A stretch of DNA of 33,213 nt from Patescibacteria group bacterium (lineage in GTDB: Bacteria > Patescibacteriota > Patescibacteriia > UBA1558 > GWA2-36-10). The first letter of the stretch is position 1, and the number at the start of each line of letters is the position of its first letter. The translations under genes and the position numbers were made by a program. The notes beneath the pieces are model-generated. The model had not been told where the DNA came from, ran no database searches, and saw only the letters and a list, made by a program, of their open reading frames with translations. Positions 1,560 to 12,906 of this stretch are shown here, piece after piece. The DNA lies in contig JAQUKX010000003.1 in assembly GCA_028718865.1 (NCBI GenBank), positions 1-33,213 of the forward strand, read 5' to 3'.

Positions 1560-2711
1560 TTATTTGTTATACTTGCGCCAGTGACTGAGCCAAGTATTTT
1601 TTTTAATTTCAATATATATTTTTTCCGCTTTTATTTTTTCAGCGCTAGTAGCGCCCTTCAAGGTTCGGACACTTTTGATCAACTCTTCTGAACCATTGTC
1701 TATCATGTCCGGATTCCAAGTCAAAGGAGAAAAAGCCGAAGGGCGCTTGGCTGAAGCCCACCAAAAAGTGCAGGAAGAAAGCCCTCGGTCTAAATGCCGT
1801 CTGGCCCAAATCCAATTTTTGTCTTTTCTGTATTTGACCAAAAGACGGCTGGCATAAGCAACCAAATCCCACAAAGAGCGATGAATTTTATTTTTGGGAT
1901 CCTGCCACAGAGCAAAAGGCACACCTCGTTCTATTTCCGCCTGACTGCTCTCCCAGGAAGCTGGCCGCAGGGATATATTTTTTAGCTGCTTATAAGCGCT
2001 TAGATGCTGGGAAACCGTTTTTACTACCAAATTGCTATTTTGCAAAATCTTTTCCAAGTGTCCCTGCCAATCTTTGTGAAAATGACCATAGACCTCGCCA
2101 TCAGTGGCGCTGATTACGGTTTCTTCTGTTTTGATTTTTTTAAATTTATTGAAAATAACTTCCGGCGGATAAGCTTTGGACAGCTGCCGATCACGAAACA
2201 AAACTTTCAAACCAGAGCTTTTATCACGATAAACTCTGTTTTTTTCTACCTTCCCTCTGACACAAATCGAGTCTAAAATAATCCACTCAAAACCGGCTTG
2301 GCGGATAATTTTAGCAACAGTCGGGCTATAAGCCATTTCTGGCAGAAAAAAACCCTTAATTTTAGCCAAATCAAAATTCTGGGACAAAACCTCCTGATTG
2401 AGCTTTATTTGTCTTTTTGCTTCTGCTTTGTCCAGAAGCGGTAAAAAAGCATGATATTTGGCGCTAGCAGTGAGTTCCAGCTGCCCTTTTTTGACCAAAA
2501 TCTTTATCCTTTTGAGCAAATCCGGCCGGATCAGCTCTAGCTGCTGGATCAAATTACCGGTGATATTCAAAGTTGCTCGGAAATCAGGATAACGCTCAAA
2601 CAAAGACAAAAGATAATCATAGCTCTCTATTGCCACCTGCTCAATCACGCCTTTGTCCTGCCAAGGCGGCTGATAAATATGCAAAAAATTTATCCAATTA
2701 ATTTTGCTCAT
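1560..2711 (-). CDS. Glycoside hydrolase family 57 protein (alpha-amylase/glucanotransferase-like)
   Basis: N-terminal FLHIYQPPWQ, GFFLPEMAYSP (nucleophile motif) and TDGEVYGHFHKDWQ (acid/base motif) match GH57 conserved regions. Confidence 0.85.
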   Translation of the reverse strand: MSKINWINFLHIYQPPWQDKGVIEQVAIESYDYLLSLFERYPDFRATLNITGNLIQQLELIRPDLLKRIKILVKKGQLELTASAKYHAFLPLLDKAEAKRQIKLNQEVLSQNFDLAKIKGFFLPEMAYSPTVAKIIRQAGFEWIILDSICVRGKVEKNRVYRDKSSGLKVLFRDRQLSKAYPPEVIFNKFKKIKTEETVISATDGEVYGHFHKDWQGHLEKILQNSNLVVKTVSQHLSAYKQLKNISLRPASWESSQAEIERGVPFALWQDPKNKIHRSLWDLVAYASRLLVKYRKDKNWIWARRHLDRGLSSCTFWWASAKRPSAFSPLTWNPDMIDNGSEELIKSVRTLKGATSAEKIKAEKIYIEIKKNTWLSHWRKYNK

Positions 2712-4176
2712 CTTGTTTTTTGAATTTAATCGCTTTTTTATAAAGCTCCAGATAGCGCTCAGCTGGCAAATCCCAAGAATATGACGAGCGCATGCCTCTG
2801 GCTACCAGTTTTTGCCAGACATCTTTGTATTTATAAGTTTCCAAAGCGCGGCTAATGGATACCAAAAGCTCGTAGGTATTATAATTTTTAAAAGTAAAGC
2901 CATTACCGGAAAAATCCTCTGGATCAAAATTGGAAACTGTATCAGACAAACCGCCGGTATTTCTCACTATCGGCACTGCCCCGTAGCGAAAGCCTATTAG
3001 CTGATTTATACCACAAGGCTCAAAGCGGGAGGGTAAGAGGAACATGTCAGCACCGGCATAAATAGAGGTCTCCATTTTACGATCAAAAGGAACTACGGCC
3101 AATTTTTTAGGATATTTCTTTTTTATTTTATTTAATTTTTTCAAATACTCCTTATCGCCATCGCCCATGATGATAATCTGAACATCGCGCAGAAGCAAAG
3201 TGGGCAAAATATCCAAAATCAAATCAAAGCCTTTTTGCTCCACCACTCGAGAAGTCAGGCCTAGCAGCGGCATTCTGTCTAAAAGTGGCAGAGAATAAAA
3301 CTTCTGCAAATAACTTTTATTGGCCGCCTTGCGACGCAAATTATTTACATTATAATTTTTGTAAAGACCAGGATCAGTGGTGGGATTGTATTTGTTGTAG
3401 TCAATACCGTTGACCACCCCAAACAGTTTGTGCTGACGATTTTTCAAAATACCCTGCAAATCCTGGCCAAAACTTTTTTCCATGATTTCTTGAGCATAGG
3501 TCTCTGAAACTGTATTGATGACATCGGCATTGAGAATAGCCCGCTTGGCAAAATTGATATACTCAATTTTTTTGTCAGTAAACAAAGGCAAAGATTTATA
3601 ACCTTTGTCTTTGTACTTCAAGGGTACTTCCCACCAATTTGAGCCGAGCTGAAAAGTAAGATTGTGAATAGTAAAAACTGTTGCTGCTTTGGCCAAAGTG
3701 CGGCTGTTTTTAAATTTGGTCTTTTTCAAATAAGGCACTAGTCCGCTTTGCCAATCATGGCAGTGGATAATATCAGCTGGGAATTTTAACAAAGAAATCA
3801 ACTTAAGGGCAGCAACATCAAAAAGATAAAAACGAGCGTTCTCATGGTTGGAGCCGTAAATTTCTTTGCGGCGGGAAAAAAACTTATCATTTCTGACAAA
3901 ATAAACTTTCAATCCCGGCAAAAGCTCGCTGCGATAATAACTGACTTTGATTTCATTTTCCTTGTCAATTTTGAGCTGAATATCGCTGTATATTTTTTCC
4001 AAATTATATTTTTCCCGATTAATTACCTTGCCGTAAAACGGCGTGATGATAATGACATCATACCCTAGACGATGTAGAGACTTGGGCAAAGACCGAGCCA
4101 CGTCCGCCAGCCCGCCGGTCTTGGAATAAGGATCAACTTCTGAAGCAATGGAAACTATTTTTAAATTTTTAGCCAT
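2698..4176 (-). CDS. glgA: Glycogen synthase (GT5)
   Basis: SIASEVDPYSKTGGLADVARSLPKSL, HCHDWQSGLVPY, FTIHNLTFQ, PSRFEPCGINQLIGFRYGAVPIVRNTGGLSDTV. Confidence 0.93.
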   Translation of the reverse strand: MAKNLKIVSIASEVDPYSKTGGLADVARSLPKSLHRLGYDVIIITPFYGKVINREKYNLEKIYSDIQLKIDKENEIKVSYYRSELLPGLKVYFVRNDKFFSRRKEIYGSNHENARFYLFDVAALKLISLLKFPADIIHCHDWQSGLVPYLKKTKFKNSRTLAKAATVFTIHNLTFQLGSNWWEVPLKYKDKGYKSLPLFTDKKIEYINFAKRAILNADVINTVSETYAQEIMEKSFGQDLQGILKNRQHKLFGVVNGIDYNKYNPTTDPGLYKNYNVNNLRRKAANKSYLQKFYSLPLLDRMPLLGLTSRVVEQKGFDLILDILPTLLLRDVQIIIMGDGDKEYLKKLNKIKKKYPKKLAVVPFDRKMETSIYAGADMFLLPSRFEPCGINQLIGFRYGAVPIVRNTGGLSDTVSNFDPEDFSGNGFTFKNYNTYELLVSISRALETYKYKDVWQKLVARGMRSSYSWDLPAERYLELYKKAIKFKKQDEQN

Positions 4177-7648: not shown

Positions 7649-8338
7649 ATGAGAAAACACGTCTGTTTGCTCGGGCTGGCCATTTTTGGCCTGCTAATGG
7701 TTCTAGGGGGATGTTCACCAAGAATCATCTACCCAAGTACCGGGGAAGTGAAGTCCAACCAAGACTTCAAAACAACCATTCACAACGACGGTCCTTTTCC
7801 GATCTTTTACGAAAGGCCTGGTCGAGGCATCAACCTCTGGGAAACGCTCTACGCTGTCTTCCCCAGAAACAGCGTAGTAGTCACTAACAAAGGCGGCTGG
7901 GAAACCAAAGGCCGTATTCGCTTTGGCAGTCCGGGGCCCGATGATTTTGTCGGGGAGACAATCACTGACATTCCCTTCCGTTATCTATCCCCCTTTCATC
8001 GCGAGATCAGAATCTCGCATCTAACCCTCAATCGCCGTAGTTTACAACTAGGGAGAGTCTGGAATAAGTCCAATGAAGCCATGGATGTCTATGACAACTA
8101 TGGCAACCGCTATGTGCTCCAGCCCGGAGAATTTCGTCTATATGAAGTACCATCTGGAGCACTTCAGATCAGCTACAAACCCATTGAGCTCAAACAGCCT
8201 CATATCAGACCAGAGAATTTTAATCTGATAGTGAATAACAAGCCCGACAGCCACTGGCACCTTGACCCATCAACTGGGGAATATAAGCCTATTGGCTGGT
8301 ATGTGGACATAAACTACTTTCCTAATATCTGGAGGTAA
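7649..8338 (+). CDS. Orphan lipoprotein of unknown function
   Basis: Signal peptide with lipobox VLGGC; SD AGGAAGG 7 nt before ATG; dedicated promoter and terminator; no recognisable family. Confidence 0.85.
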   Translation: MRKHVCLLGLAIFGLLMVLGGCSPRIIYPSTGEVKSNQDFKTTIHNDGPFPIFYERPGRGINLWETLYAVFPRNSVVVTNKGGWETKGRIRFGSPGPDDFVGETITDIPFRYLSPFHREIRISHLTLNRRSLQLGRVWNKSNEAMDVYDNYGNRYVLQPGEFRLYEVPSGALQISYKPIELKQPHIRPENFNLIVNNKPDSHWHLDPSTGEYKPIGWYVDINYFPNIWR

Positions 8339-8340
8339 AC

Positions 8341-8390
8341 AAAAACTCCGCTTCATCTGGCGTATGCCAGATGAAGCGGGGTTGTTTTTT
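8341..8390. terminator. Bidirectional terminator between the convergent lipoprotein and pilin genes
   Basis: CCGCTTCATCTGGC-GTAT-GCCAGATGAAGCGG, 14-bp perfect stem (8348-8379), T-rich on both strands (GGGTTGTTTTTTT on plus; GGAGTTTTTGTTT on minus). Confidence 0.9.
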
Positions 8391-8406: not shown

Positions 8407-8817
8407 TTATCCACCGCCACCCTCGGCTGGTGGACCGCTCTGACCAAGTCCGCCTTCCAAAACCTGCAAAACAGCATAAACAATCACATAAGATAACACC
8501 ACTATAGCCAAGCCAATAGCCGCATTGCTTATTACTTTTTTAGCTTCATCCACTTGCTGACTATTGCCTCTGGCCAGCATCCATTTGAAGCCTCCATAAA
8601 TTACTAAAACAGTAAAAAGCATCCCCAAAAGACTTAAAAGGCCATTGATAACACCAGCAACAATTGTAAATAAGTTGGCGCCTTGTATCAGAGTAGTTCT
8701 TCTAGCCGCTGCATTCAAGCCGCTAGTTTCAGACAAACTGGGAGCTGTTTGCCCTGAAACCAATAAGGGTACTAGCAAAAATAAGAATAAACTTGATATG
8801 TGGTATTTATTTTTCAT
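8407..8817 (-). CDS. T4SS-type pilin-like protein (copy 1)
   Basis: Signal peptide plus two hydrophobic segments with YGGFKWMLARGNSQQVDEAKKVI between them. Confidence 0.8.
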   Translation of the reverse strand: MKNKYHISSLFLFLLVPLLVSGQTAPSLSETSGLNAAARRTTLIQGANLFTIVAGVINGLLSLLGMLFTVLVIYGGFKWMLARGNSQQVDEAKKVISNAAIGLAIVVLSYVIVYAVLQVLEGGLGQSGPPAEGGGG

Positions 8818-8830
8818 ATTTTATATATAA

Positions 8831-9235
8831 TTAAAGCGCGGGCGGGCCGATAAAATCTTGGGAATATCCATCAATAGAAGATTGATAAATTAATTGTAAA
8901 ATTGTCCGGCTGATAGAATAAGAAACCAAAACTATTATCAGTCCTATGGCGGCATTTTTTATTACTTTTTTGGCTTCATCCACTTGCTGGCTATTGCCTT
9001 GAGACAACATCCATTTGAAACCGCCGTATATTATCAATATAGTAAATAATACACCCAAAAATCCCAACAAAACATTAATTATGCCGGCAATTATTCTGCC
9101 CGGCGAACTATCCTTGGGTAAATTGAGGCGAGAACCAAAAGCCGGCAAGCCAAGACTTTCGGCTAAAGAAGCGCCCTGCGCCAAAAAAGGAAAAAACAAA
9201 AGGGCAAAGGCAAAAATTTTTTTTAACTGTTTCAT
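8831..9235 (-). CDS. T4SS-type pilin-like protein (copy 2); start corrected to MKQLKK
   Basis: IYGGFKWMLSQGNSQQVDEAKKVI. The track start at 9385 would overlap copy 3; ATG at 9235 is followed by a normal signal peptide. Confidence 0.8.
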   Translation of the reverse strand: MKQLKKIFAFALLFFPFLAQGASLAESLGLPAFGSRLNLPKDSSPGRIIAGIINVLLGFLGVLFTILIIYGGFKWMLSQGNSQQVDEAKKVIKNAAIGLIIVLVSYSISRTILQLIYQSSIDGYSQDFIGPPAL

Positions 9236-9256
9236 TATTGCAGTTAGTCCAAGCTC

Positions 9257-9287
9257 TAGTAGGTCATTGATTAGCAATGACCTACTA
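9257..9287 (-). promoter_or_regulatory. Intercistronic hairpin between pilin copies 3 and 2
   Basis: TAGTAGGTCATTG-ATTAG-CAATGACCTACTA, 13-bp perfect stem with no following T-run on the minus strand. Confidence 0.75.
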
Positions 9288-9317
9288 TAGTCTAGACTAA
9301 ATAGGTCTATTTTTAGA

Positions 9318-9695
9318 TTATACTGTGGCTTCGTAAACTTCGGCCAAGACAAATCTGGAAATAGCATAAGCGGCCAAAATAACAACCAAGCCGACTACGC
9401 CGGCGCCGATCATCTTCTTGGCTTCATCTACTTTGTCAGAACTGCCTTGAGAGGTCATCCATTTGAAACCGCCGATCAAAATAATAATAGTGGTCAAAAC
9501 ACCCAAAAAGCCCAAGACCAAGTTGATAATACCAGCAATAGAACCGCGCAAATCTCTGGTTCCTAGATAAACGCCATAACCGCCCAACTCTTCTGTGCCC
9601 CAATCTTCAGGAGAAAATTGAGCAGAAGCTTTGTTGACAGACAAAGAAGCTACAGCTGGAGCTACTAACAACATTGATGTTAAGAATTTTTTCAT
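9318..9695 (-). CDS. T4SS-type pilin-like protein (copy 3)
   Basis: LIGGFKWMTSQGSSDKVDEAKKMI; strong SD (AGAAAGGGGGTG) and its own promoter. Confidence 0.82.
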   Translation of the reverse strand: MKKFLTSMLLVAPAVASLSVNKASAQFSPEDWGTEELGGYGVYLGTRDLRGSIAGIINLVLGFLGVLTTIIILIGGFKWMTSQGSSDKVDEAKKMIGAGVVGLVVILAAYAISRFVLAEVYEATV

Positions 9696-9745
9696 TTTTT
9701 CACCCCCTTTCTTTCCCTTTATTTTAATAATTAATTGTCAATTAA

Positions 9746-9774
9746 ATTATAGGGTAAAATCGCTATTTTTTCAA
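9746..9774 (-). promoter_or_regulatory. Internal promoter for pilin copy 3
   Basis: Minus strand TTGAAA - 17 nt - TATAAT. Confidence 0.7.
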
Positions 9775-9793
9775 TAGCAAAAGACAAAAATGC

Positions 9794-10123
9794 TTAGCCA
9801 GCTCCTTGCAAGATGGTCAAAACTACATTGATAACAAAGTAACTCAAAAAAACAGCCACTAGCCCGAAAATGGCCCAAAGCATAGTATCTCTTCCGGCTT
9901 TTACTTTATCTGCGTTTCCTCTGGAAGTCATCCAAGTAATTCCTCCTTGAAATACAAAAAATAAGGATAAAGCCCCAACTATACCTAAAATTGCTCTTAT
10001 AAAATTGGCAATCAAATCGGGAATGCTATTTACATTAGGCAATGGATTGGGCACAGAAATAGCAATGGCTGAATAAATTGGAAAAAGAAGAAAAATTGCA
10101 AGGATAATAATTTTCTTTTTCAT
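9794..10123 (-). CDS. T4SS-type pilin-like protein (copy 4)
   Basis: FQGGITWMTSRGNADKVKAGRDTML between two hydrophobic segments, signal peptide. Confidence 0.8.
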   Translation of the reverse strand: MKKKIIILAIFLLFPIYSAIAISVPNPLPNVNSIPDLIANFIRAILGIVGALSLFFVFQGGITWMTSRGNADKVKAGRDTMLWAIFGLVAVFLSYFVINVVLTILQGAG

Positions 10124-10148
10124 TATAATAAATTATTTATTTAAATCA

Positions 10149-10595
10149 CTATTGATTTGGTTGGGCAGGAGGAGAAATATTCTCTGTATTACCAGATTGA
10201 ACCCTATAAGATTCATCAACTCTTAAAACATCGTTTATTAAAAATTGTAAAAATATATAACTGGCAAAAACAATGCCTAAAGCATAAATAGTATTAATCA
10301 TGATACTAGCGCCTTTTTTCACCTTTTCCGGATGACCATCGGAAGTCAGCCAAATAACTCCTCCCCAAAAAAAATAAAGCAAAGCCAAAGCGCCGACCAC
10401 TCCCAACATCCAATTAATAAGAGCCGTAATAGCCAATACTATATCATTTAGCTGACAATCGCCGGCTGTAAGGCAAGAAATATTATCCAAAAAACCGCGA
10501 GGGGCAGTAGAAGTAGCGTTACCTTGAGCCTGTCCGGCCAAAAATGGCCAAGCCCATACTGTCGCTACTACCAAAATAAGGTTTATTTTTTTCAT
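10149..10595 (-). CDS. T4SS-type pilin-like protein (copy 5)
   Basis: FWGGVIWLTSDGHPEKVKKGASIMI; start overlaps the stop of the upstream solute-binding protein (TAATG). Confidence 0.8.
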   Translation of the reverse strand: MKKINLILVVATVWAWPFLAGQAQGNATSTAPRGFLDNISCLTAGDCQLNDIVLAITALINWMLGVVGALALLYFFWGGVIWLTSDGHPEKVKKGASIMINTIYALGIVFASYIFLQFLINDVLRVDESYRVQSGNTENISPPAQPNQ

Positions 10596-11962
10596 TATGG
10601 TTGCCTATAAGTCTGATTGATGCGATTGACAAATAAATTCAAAACACTACCATCTCTATCTAGAATCATCTCGCCTGACAAAAGCCCTTCAATTGTTTCT
10701 TTGAGATAAAGTTCAGCGACCTCAATGTTGTAACCATTATACCAACTATCAGCAGTCAAAACTTGAGAAGCAAAAACCGCAGTATCAGGATCAGCTAATT
10801 GTTGGTTAACCAAAGACCGCAAAGCTGTTGGCTTCTTATTCGGTTCCAAATAAAGATTGACTTTATCAGAGGCGGAAGTGCTCTGAATAAAATTCCAAGC
10901 CGCCTCTCTATTATTAGATTTTTTGGCTACGACATTGACCCAATAATTGGTATAATATTTCGTGCCCTGAGCACCTCTGGTCTGAGGAAAATTGTTGATC
11001 CCCCAATTAAAAGCTGTGCCTCGACGACGCAATTCATCAGCATGATAGCTATAGCCGAAAAAATAAGCCAAGCGGCCGCTGGCAAAAAGCTCAAAAGCAT
11101 TGTCCAATTCCTTGTTCCAACTGTAACTAGCTCGGCCGGGCCGGGCAAAATCAGTATAAAAAGTAAATACTTGGGCCAAGCGATCAGCTGAATCCCTGTC
11201 AGTCAAAGGCTGAAAGGAATTGCCTTTGACCTGGACTCCGTTTTGCAGCATAATGCTGGAAAAAATATCAAAAAACCTCGGGATATTATCAGTGCCGCCC
11301 AAAGCTACGGCTGACTGAATAATTCTATTGCCCTCAGTAGCCAGGGTCAGACGGGGAGCTTGTTCCACTAAATCAAAAAAATCAAAGACTGGCTCGGGAA
11401 TACCCGCTCTATCGAGCATATCACGGTTATAAAAAGTGACCAAGGTATCAAGAGAGTAGGGCAAACCGTAAATCTGATTATTTAAAACCACGTTATCATA
11501 AACCGCCGGCACATAACGAGTTCTGATATCGTTGGCTGATAAGCCTCTGAATTCTCGTAATACCGTGACTTGCTCTGGTCTAACCGTCCCTTGTAATTCA
11601 TAAACCGGAATACGATAACTAGTCGGCATGGGTTCAAGCCGAGGCTCGTATTTTTTTATCCAAGTAGCAGGAATAGCAAATACATCGGGACCGCGGTCAT
11701 CAGCCCAAGCTTCTAAAAGTTCTCTTTCGTACTCTTCGTAGCGAAAATTACGATAACGGACAGTAATAGTCGGGTGACTGACGTTGTAGTCGTCTATCAA
11801 GGCCTTGAGCTGAGCCGGGGTGTCCCATACTCCCCAATACTCCAAAGTAATATTCTGATGAAGCTCTGGCTCTCTGCTAAAAGGATTAAATTTGCAGCCA
11901 AAGCCACTGGTGATAATAAACACCGCCAAAAGCAAAAGGGTAAATATTTTTGCTCTACTCAT
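10595..11962 (-). CDS. Extracellular solute-binding lipoprotein (family 1, ABC sugar-binding-like)
   Basis: Lipobox SGFGC; ITLEYWGVWDTPAQLKALIDDYNVSHPTITVRYRNFRYEEYERELLEAWADDRGPDVFAIPATWI is typical of SBP family 1. Confidence 0.88.
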   Translation of the reverse strand: MSRAKIFTLLLLAVFIITSGFGCKFNPFSREPELHQNITLEYWGVWDTPAQLKALIDDYNVSHPTITVRYRNFRYEEYERELLEAWADDRGPDVFAIPATWIKKYEPRLEPMPTSYRIPVYELQGTVRPEQVTVLREFRGLSANDIRTRYVPAVYDNVVLNNQIYGLPYSLDTLVTFYNRDMLDRAGIPEPVFDFFDLVEQAPRLTLATEGNRIIQSAVALGGTDNIPRFFDIFSSIMLQNGVQVKGNSFQPLTDRDSADRLAQVFTFYTDFARPGRASYSWNKELDNAFELFASGRLAYFFGYSYHADELRRRGTAFNWGINNFPQTRGAQGTKYYTNYWVNVVAKKSNNREAAWNFIQSTSASDKVNLYLEPNKKPTALRSLVNQQLADPDTAVFASQVLTADSWYNGYNIEVAELYLKETIEGLLSGEMILDRDGSVLNLFVNRINQTYRQP

Positions 11963-11965
11963 AGA

Positions 11966-12829
11966 CTATAATCCTTTTAAATATTTTTTTAGCTGACTTG
12001 AAAATTCTTTTCTTTTCAAGCCAAAGTTGACTATGGCTTTGATAAATTCCAGTTTGTTGCCGCAGTCATAATAATCACCATCGTAAGTGCAGGCATAACC
12101 GGCTCTTTTTTTAATATATCTGGCAATAGCATCGGTCAATTGTATCTCGCCGCCAGCGCCGGTTTTTTGCTCAGACAAAAAATCAAAAATTTCCGGCGTC
12201 AGAATATAGCGGCCAGTAATAGCTAAATTGGAAGGAGCTTTGGCTGGAGCTGGTTTTTCCACCAATTTTTTTATCTGTGAGGTTTTTTGGTCTATAAAAA
12301 TCGGATCCACTATGCCGTACTTATCAGTTTCTTTTTTGGCAACCTTGGTTACGCCGACTACCACATCCTGATACTTTTCATAAACTTTGATCAATTGTTT
12401 TATTGCCGGCACGCGCGAGTCAATAATATCATCGCCCAGCATTACGGCAAAAGGTTCGTTTTCTATCAATGAGCGAGCGCTGAAAATAGCATGCCCCAAA
12501 CCGCGGGGAGTTTTTTGCCGAACATAAACAAAATTGGCCATATCGGAAATGCGCAGTATTTCCTTGAGATTGGCCTGCTTGTTTTTTTGGCGCAGGCGGT
12601 ATTCCAATTCAAAGTTGCGATCAAAATGATCTTCTATGGCTCGCTTGTTTGAGGAAGTGACAAAAATAATCTCCTCAATGCCAGCTGCTACTGCTTCTTC
12701 CACTATATACTGAATAATCGGCTTATCCACCAAGGGCAGCATTTCCTTGGGCTGGGCTTTGGTAGCTGGCAAAAAGCGTGTGCCTAGGCCAGCGACAGGG
12801 ATAACTACTTTGCGAATTTTTTTCATCAA
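11966..12829 (-). CDS. galU: UTP--glucose-1-phosphate uridylyltransferase
   Basis: KVVIPVAGLGTRFLPATKAQPKEMLPLVDKPIIQYIVEEAVAAGIEEIIFVTS; EKPAPAKAPSNLAITGRYILTPEIF. Confidence 0.95.
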   Translation of the reverse strand: MMKKIRKVVIPVAGLGTRFLPATKAQPKEMLPLVDKPIIQYIVEEAVAAGIEEIIFVTSSNKRAIEDHFDRNFELEYRLRQKNKQANLKEILRISDMANFVYVRQKTPRGLGHAIFSARSLIENEPFAVMLGDDIIDSRVPAIKQLIKVYEKYQDVVVGVTKVAKKETDKYGIVDPIFIDQKTSQIKKLVEKPAPAKAPSNLAITGRYILTPEIFDFLSEQKTGAGGEIQLTDAIARYIKKRAGYACTYDGDYYDCGNKLEFIKAIVNFGLKRKEFSSQLKKYLKGL

Positions 12830-12877: not shown

Positions 12878-12906
12878 ATTATACTAAAAATAGCCCCGGC
12901 TGTAAA
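12878..12906 (-). promoter_or_regulatory. Promoter for the galU-SBP-pilin run
   Basis: Minus strand TTTACA - 17 nt - TATAAT. Confidence 0.65.

Follow-up and report, generated by a model that had tools for sequence, protein, structure and literature searches.

Tandem arrays of VirB2-like pilin genes have been described in the Patescibacteria, in which 441 arrays of 2-11 genes were found in a survey of type IV secretion systems (T4SS) that detected no adhesins in its data set (PMC12102498). It is an open question how these very abundant, mostly uncultured and host-dependent bacteria hold on to other cells and exploit them. In Southlakia epibionticum ML1, the one such species tested, the T4SS is essential, and transposon sequencing showed the T4SS pilin series to be so (PMC10633639).

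An array of this kind lies in a 33,213-nucleotide stretch of contig JAQUKX010000003.1 (assembly GCA_028718865.1), referred to here as the window, from an ultrasmall, probably host-dependent patescibacterium. With five tandem pilin genes, P1 to P5, and a patescibacterial-type VirB4 in the genome, the locus falls within the definition of a patescibacterial VirB2 array, which calls for at least two tandem pilins and such a VirB4. The array was compared across 21 genomes of its Komeilibacteria-like family in the class ABY1 and more widely in the phylum. The comparison makes it probable that the array encodes a heteropolymeric T4SS-type fibre, with P3 as the shaft, the other array products as minor pilins, giant pilin-anchored proteins encoded elsewhere as adhesins and a repurposed solute-binding-protein-family lipoprotein (SBP) as a partner. 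A "pilin array" thereby becomes a set of named parts with testable roles, namely a major subunit, candidate adhesins and a sugar-binding partner, and the set suggests the parts of a poorly understood host-contact fibre.

Array pilins and their position-specific classes

The original prediction, made from the window alone, placed five consecutive small pilins at 8407-10595, and exactly that interval is occupied by five minus-strand open reading frames (ORFs), head to tail and transcribed in the order P5 to P1. All five match the T4SS_pilin family, PF18895, at 30.7-43.5 bits, well beyond chance and above the cut-off of 26.6 bits. For TrbC/VirB2 (PF04956), the other family named for a search in the original prediction, the best score is 16.2 bits, below the cut-off of 27.9, and the best score against the Mbov_0395 pilin-like conjugal protein (NF045849, the pilin of a mycoplasma integrative and conjugative element) is 36.9 bits, below 40. 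Of 14 control genomes, only that of the archaeon Haloferax volcanii has a PF18895 match above the cut-off. As anticipated, each of the five proteins has a hydrophobic signal at the N-terminus and two hydrophobic helices, and the signature said to be shared by them is literal in four of the five, copy 1 reading WMLARG. For copy 2, the ORF given (8831-9385, TTG start) begins too early; the ATG of its signal peptide is at 9235, for a protein of 134 residues. P5 has 148 residues here and about 200-320 in relatives, and its C-terminal tail appears to have been lost or shortened.

The array has a fixed neighbourhood in the family, in the order recA, a flippase gene, an O-antigen-ligase-like gene, galU, SBP, the array, DUF2079, yebC and ruvC; complete arrays yielded 3-6 pilins each. 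In a tree of 147 pilin domains, the P5-like (A1), P4-like (A2) and T4SS-operon (T) domains form one clade each and the P1/P2-like class needs two changes, while P3-like, fusion and extra P3-like domains intermix in one group. All eight class labels together require 16 changes on the tree, versus a mean of 101.8 for shuffled labels. Copies 1-3 and 4-5 had been assigned to separate subgroups, and the tree recovers P1-P3 and P4-P5 as such. Many inner forks are unresolved because the tree is built from 108 columns only. As judged from sequence comparison, each array position corresponds to a long-established, conserved group of orthologues and not to a recent duplicate or an alternative version.

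About ten family genomes carry, outside the array, additional P3-like pilin genes that occur singly or in pairs (L057-L063, L073, L074); several of these genes lack the FKWMTSQG loop (e.g. GGFSMMISGG...), suggesting a distinct role. At one further locus (L156, G043:C15:41000-54000), 15 pilin-like genes follow SBP in tandem, the maximum in PMC12102498 being 11.

Expression signals were compared between the classes. A near-consensus Shine-Dalgarno sequence, with at least 7 of 9 matches, precedes 21 of the 22 P3-class genes but only 1 of 125 genes of all other pilin classes, and a promoter-like site with at least 10 of 12 matches precedes 18/22 and 10/125, respectively. Within the window, P3 alone among the five pilins has the near-consensus ribosome-binding site (AGGGGGTGA). 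Its codon-adaptation value, 0.751, is at the top of the set, with 0.63-0.71 for the other window pilins, although the reference set is small (five genes) and the first place is supportive only. Conservation, too, is highest for P3 among the array classes (mean identity 0.63 versus 0.42-0.58). The expression signals agree with a study of Patescibacteria enriched together with methanogens, in which T4SS pilins ranked among the most strongly expressed genes of unknown function (PMC10936435). By these signals P3 looks like the major subunit.

A solute-binding lipoprotein next to the array

Neither the SBP gene upstream of P5 nor the giant pilin fusions had been mentioned in the original prediction. 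The window SBP matches PF01547 at 69 bits, its lipobox Cys23 is invariant, and the nearest solved chains are sugar-binding proteins of ATP-binding cassette (ABC) systems. Linkage was examined in a scan of 36 loci keyed on SBP only and blind to pilins. The next gene downstream is a pilin in all 16 testable Komeilibacteria-type loci and, counted strictly, in 17 of 19 loci from other ABY1 members, or 18 of 19 if a spurious 76-residue ORF is skipped. Elsewhere in the phylum, pilins lie directly 3' of SBP in 17/20 loci, which were picked from the matches while their neighbourhoods were still unseen, and most of these have galU on the 5' side. About 20 further genomes show the linkage by coordinates; six of 20 class genomes are uninformative, as the lone match on which the stretch was centred was not the array. 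No report of an SBP-pilin link in Patescibacteria was found in the open-access literature searched.

The SBP profile is found in 108 of 143 phylum genomes, usually as a single copy. The type-I ABC permease family PF00528 has no match in the source genome and is present in only 2 of 21 family genomes and 19 of 143 phylum genomes, while 14/14 control genomes were positive. Therefore, with the permease mostly absent where SBP is common, an importer role is unlikely in most of these genomes.

SBP could instead be a mere genomic neighbour of the pilins, belonging with galU and the envelope-glycan genes or scavenging sugar for an unrecognised transporter. Its sequence is still typical of a sugar-binding family, galU is usually upstream with glycan genes nearby, and permeases are present in a few genomes. 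However, the adjacency to pilins persists at several loci where galU has been displaced, and also where the similarity of SBP to the window copy is low, and most genomes have no type-I permease, so that simple neighbourhood is judged somewhat unlikely. In the proposed fibre, the lipid-anchored SBP, encoded in the same apparent operon, would work for the fibre and not for an importer; it might, for instance, bind glycans of the host or the envelope, or assist assembly at the membrane.

Giant pilin fusions and their co-variation with P3

The source genome (877 kb, 98% complete) encodes eight PF18895 domains, five in the array, one in a 242-residue pilin of a T4SS operon on contig C5 and two at the N-termini of fusion proteins on contig C1. 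The fusions, of 541 and 2809 residues, are encoded in tandem. Such a pair, of roughly 490-560 and then about 2,300-3,600 residues, is found in 18 family genomes, although several are cut by contig ends, and pilin-headed frames of more than 1,500 residues occur in more than 20 of the 57 class genomes, among the matches listed. Upstream fusions were also read in class genomes. C-terminal of the pilin domain are TIG, Big_5 and fn3 domains and Cys-rich repeats; when three further giants were scanned, one had a VWA domain above the cut-off. A run of N, an assembly gap, lies just downstream of the giant gene on C1 (L017:2634-3884), and a further gene may be missing there. Literature searches of open-access sources found no report of pilin-fused giant proteins in Patescibacteria.

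If P3 and the fusions had evolved independently since before the radiation of the family, no excess of similarity within genomes would be expected. Identity in the mature N-terminal segment was therefore compared within and between the 18 genomes, with 1000 permutations. P3 and the short fusion are 0.572 identical within genomes versus 0.442 between them, P3 and the giant 0.570 versus 0.424, and the short fusion and the giant 0.678 versus 0.480, with 0/1000 permutations in each case. Controls with P4, P5 and the T class showed no within-genome excess with the fusions in this segment, and the P1/P2 class showed a weak excess outside it. The result was replicated in 13 genomes of other ABY1 families, where P3 and the giant are 0.483 identical within genomes versus 0.270 between them (0/2000 permutations) and P4 and the giant 0.174 versus 0.182. 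The P3-like member in the replicate was chosen by a profile trained on the original family, and one A3 row (G064) is a poor pick that consists mostly of gaps. The simplest reading of the P3-fusion co-variation is a shared assembly interface, as suggested by these sequence patterns.

Recurrent gene conversion, with no shared structural interface, might also produce such co-variation. Between the neighbouring short and giant fusions, exact DNA matches are indeed long (mean 18.6 versus 11.2), a conversion-like pattern, and their codon identity at identical residues is higher, at 0.506. P3 and the fusions, however, are unlinked and have no long shared DNA tracts: their longest exact matches are 12.3 within genomes versus 10.6 between, and 11.7 versus 11.1, for the two fusions. 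Where their residues are identical, codon identity is 0.42-0.44, close to the 0.36-0.43 of control pairs. The short DNA matches, together with the control-like codon identity, argue against recent gene conversion as the main cause, although old, since decayed conversions may contribute. Conversion as the sole source of the similarity was thus considered and is not supported by the DNA-level tests; as a full account of the co-variation it is unlikely.

Secretion machinery, the fibre model and known systems

No VirB4, VirD4 or VirB6 gene had been seen next to the array, and the sole AAA_10 match on its contig is indeed FtsK. The complete lack of a T4SS ATPase from the genome had been named as grounds to abandon the prediction, but VirB4 is encoded on another contig, and VirB4 and T4SS pilins are both present in 21/21 family genomes. 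The T4SS operon on C5 encodes a 464-residue hydrophilic protein, PrgI, TrsD, VirB4, a 189-residue protein, a 174-residue membrane protein, a 407-residue propeller-like protein and the pilin, in a gene order conserved in the relatives checked. VirB4 (NF045971) scores 357.9 bits, above the equivalog cut-off of 325, and PrgI 38.4 bits against a cut-off of 27; TrsD, at 35.4 bits, is below its cut-off of 200. The model of the 189-residue protein has a transmembrane helix and an NTF2-like domain, and among PDB entries it best matches the PrgL VirB8 domain of pCF10 (E 3.5e-4), with IcmL, DotI and CagV next. Contig C13 carries two coupling-protein-like genes. In the single-contig genome G020, the array is at about 183 kb, VirB4 at 451 kb and the fusions at 986-988 kb; because these loci are so far apart there, the dispersal is real and not an effect of assembly. 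By gene content, then, the T4SS is of a dispersed, monoderm type, with VirB4, PrgI, TrsD and a VirB8 fold.

In the model proposed here, the array products would be subunits of one T4SS-type (VirB2-like) surface fibre, its assembly driven by the VirB4/PrgI/TrsD/VirB8-like machine on the other contig. P3, which has a promoter-like site of its own and a strong ribosome-binding site, would be the abundant shaft subunit, and P1, P2, P4 and P5 would be fixed, non-interchangeable minor subunits. The two fusions, of about 540 and 2,000-3,600 residues, with a P3-type pilin domain followed by immunoglobulin-like, TIG and sometimes VWA domains, would most likely be built into this fibre, or into its base, as adhesins.

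Several points weigh against this model. The array, the T4SS operon and the giant genes are unlinked, and their assignment to one machine comes from co-occurrence and co-variation, which can also stem from old gene conversion. No VirB6 was recognised in the T4SS operon by Pfam or NCBIfam; NF045848, used as a VirB6 probe, had no match anywhere, control genomes included, and is thus uninformative. The SBP-pilin link is absent in some families (G093, G109, G138, G189 and others), and the VWA-type DxSxS motif is found in only 8 of 13 complete giants. The filament is inferred from genes, the monomer being modelled as only a helical hairpin. In the AlphaFold model of P3, the helices span residues 49-80 and 86-124 (predicted local distance difference test mostly >90), and the protein ends just past the second helix with no C-terminal tail. 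Foldseek found no significant PDB match to this model, VirB2 and TraA included, and a P3 profile gave chance matches only against the sequences of solved structures, a two-helix hairpin being too plain.

The same plain hairpin would suit pilin domains that are two-helix membrane anchors or channel-lining subunits, such that the small proteins form the T4SS pore and the fusions, which require an anchor, are membrane-tethered adhesins. Gram-positive T4SS are also generally without pili (PMC10633639, PMC12102498). A simple anchor, however, needs no co-variation with P3 in the mature N-terminal segment, and expression signals that mark one small subunit as abundant suit a polymer more than a pore; the anchor explanation is considered distinctly unlikely.

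The original prediction had allowed either a heteropolymeric fibre or a set of alternative subunits, and the former fits the position-specific orthologues, the one high-expression member and the co-variation with the giant fusions. Interchangeable versions that serve antigenic variation or suit different hosts have been proposed for VirB2 arrays, Bartonella and Anaplasma being the analogy (PMC12102498), and would be in keeping with the varying number of P1/P2-class genes and some DNA shared with P3 (one 68-nucleotide exact match). Such versions are very unlikely here, given that old, fixed paralogues speak against them, that the orthologue class found at a given position is the same across 13 genera, without signs of turnover, and that strong expression signals are found in one member alone. 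For the heteropolymeric fibre, a more specific proposal is made tentatively: a fixed-composition fibre with an ex-importer SBP as a lipid-anchored pilus component and giant pilin subunits making host contact would be an adhesive secretion pilus not previously described.

The features of the window are collected in the table. The two-way hairpin at 8344-8383 is common to the array and the convergent gene at 7649-8338. The gene at 11966-12829 is taken to be galU, for a UTP-glucose-1-phosphate uridylyltransferase-like protein. A few kb downstream of the array, at 1560-4176, are genes presumed by inspection only to encode a glycogen-synthase-like protein and a GH57-like glycosidase, in a genome without a sugar ABC permease.

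Table. Pilin array and adjoining features of the window (SH-aLRT, Shimodaira-Hasegawa-like approximate likelihood ratio test)
Feature	Coordinates	Strand	Basis
Two-way terminator-like hairpin 3' of P1	8344..8383	both strands	18-pair stem, T tract on each strand
P1, T4SS_pilin, class A4	8407..8817	-	PF18895 42 bits; orthologue class from tree
P2, T4SS_pilin, class A4 neighbourhood, ATG at 9235	8831..9235	-	PF18895 38.6 bits; signal peptide read from 9235
P3, T4SS_pilin, class A3, proposed major subunit	9318..9695	-	PF18895 30.7 bits
Near-consensus Shine-Dalgarno sequence of P3, AGGGGGTGA	9700..9708	-	Sequence and class-wide conservation
Promoter-like site TTGAAA-17-TATAAT, 5' of P3	9746..9774	-	Consensus match 11/12; among the two best in the region
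P4, T4SS_pilin, class A2 ('LPNPL' group), proposed minor subunit	9794..10123	-	PF18895 36.5 bits; clade SH-aLRT 92
P5, T4SS_pilin, class A1 ('GFLD...GC' group), proposed minor subunit	10149..10595	-	PF18895 43.5 bits; clade SH-aLRT 99
SBP, solute-binding-protein-family lipoprotein	10595..11962	-	PF01547/PF13416; stop overlaps P5 start
galU-like gene, usual 5' neighbour of SBP	11966..12829	-	Sequence; position conserved
Promoter-like site 5' of galU	12878..12906	-	Consensus match 11/12

The locus shares with the surveyed patescibacterial VirB2 arrays both the tandem, divergent PF18895 pilins and the patescibacterial VirB4 in the genome. That survey treats the arrays as variable copies, its main text has no solute-binding partner, and no mention of pilin-fused giant proteins was found in it (PMC12102498). 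The candidate adhesins described here are what the survey reported missing, and the SBP partner is unexpected and conserved across much of the phylum. As in S. epibionticum ML1, a predicted pilin series occurs with a Gram-positive-type T4SS (PMC10633639), but there the pilins are inside the T4SS cluster, whereas here the array, the T4SS operon and the fusions are dispersed.

The MPF-FATA T4SS, such as that of pCF10, likewise have VirB4, PrgI, a TrsD-like protein and a VirB8 fold, the one here being closest to PrgL. In contrast to them, pilins are present here, VirB6 was not found in the searches made and the coupling-protein-like genes are on another contig. In the bindosome of Sulfolobus, sugar-binding proteins are assembled by a pilus-like system that uses type IV pilin signal peptides and type IV pilus-like assembly and serves real ABC uptake. 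No nearer precedent is known for a link between sugar-binding proteins and a pilus machine, but the bindosome is archaeal and different, given that a lipoprotein is found here with T4SS pilins and without a permease. Pilus tip proteins such as PilY1 (review, PMC9210963) are large, VWA-bearing surface proteins attached to a pilus, whereas the giant here itself starts with a pilin domain, of the T4SS rather than the type IV pilus family. In short, the array itself is of an already known type, and what goes beyond the cited papers is the fixed roles with P3 as the putative major subunit, the co-varying giant fusions and the SBP partner.
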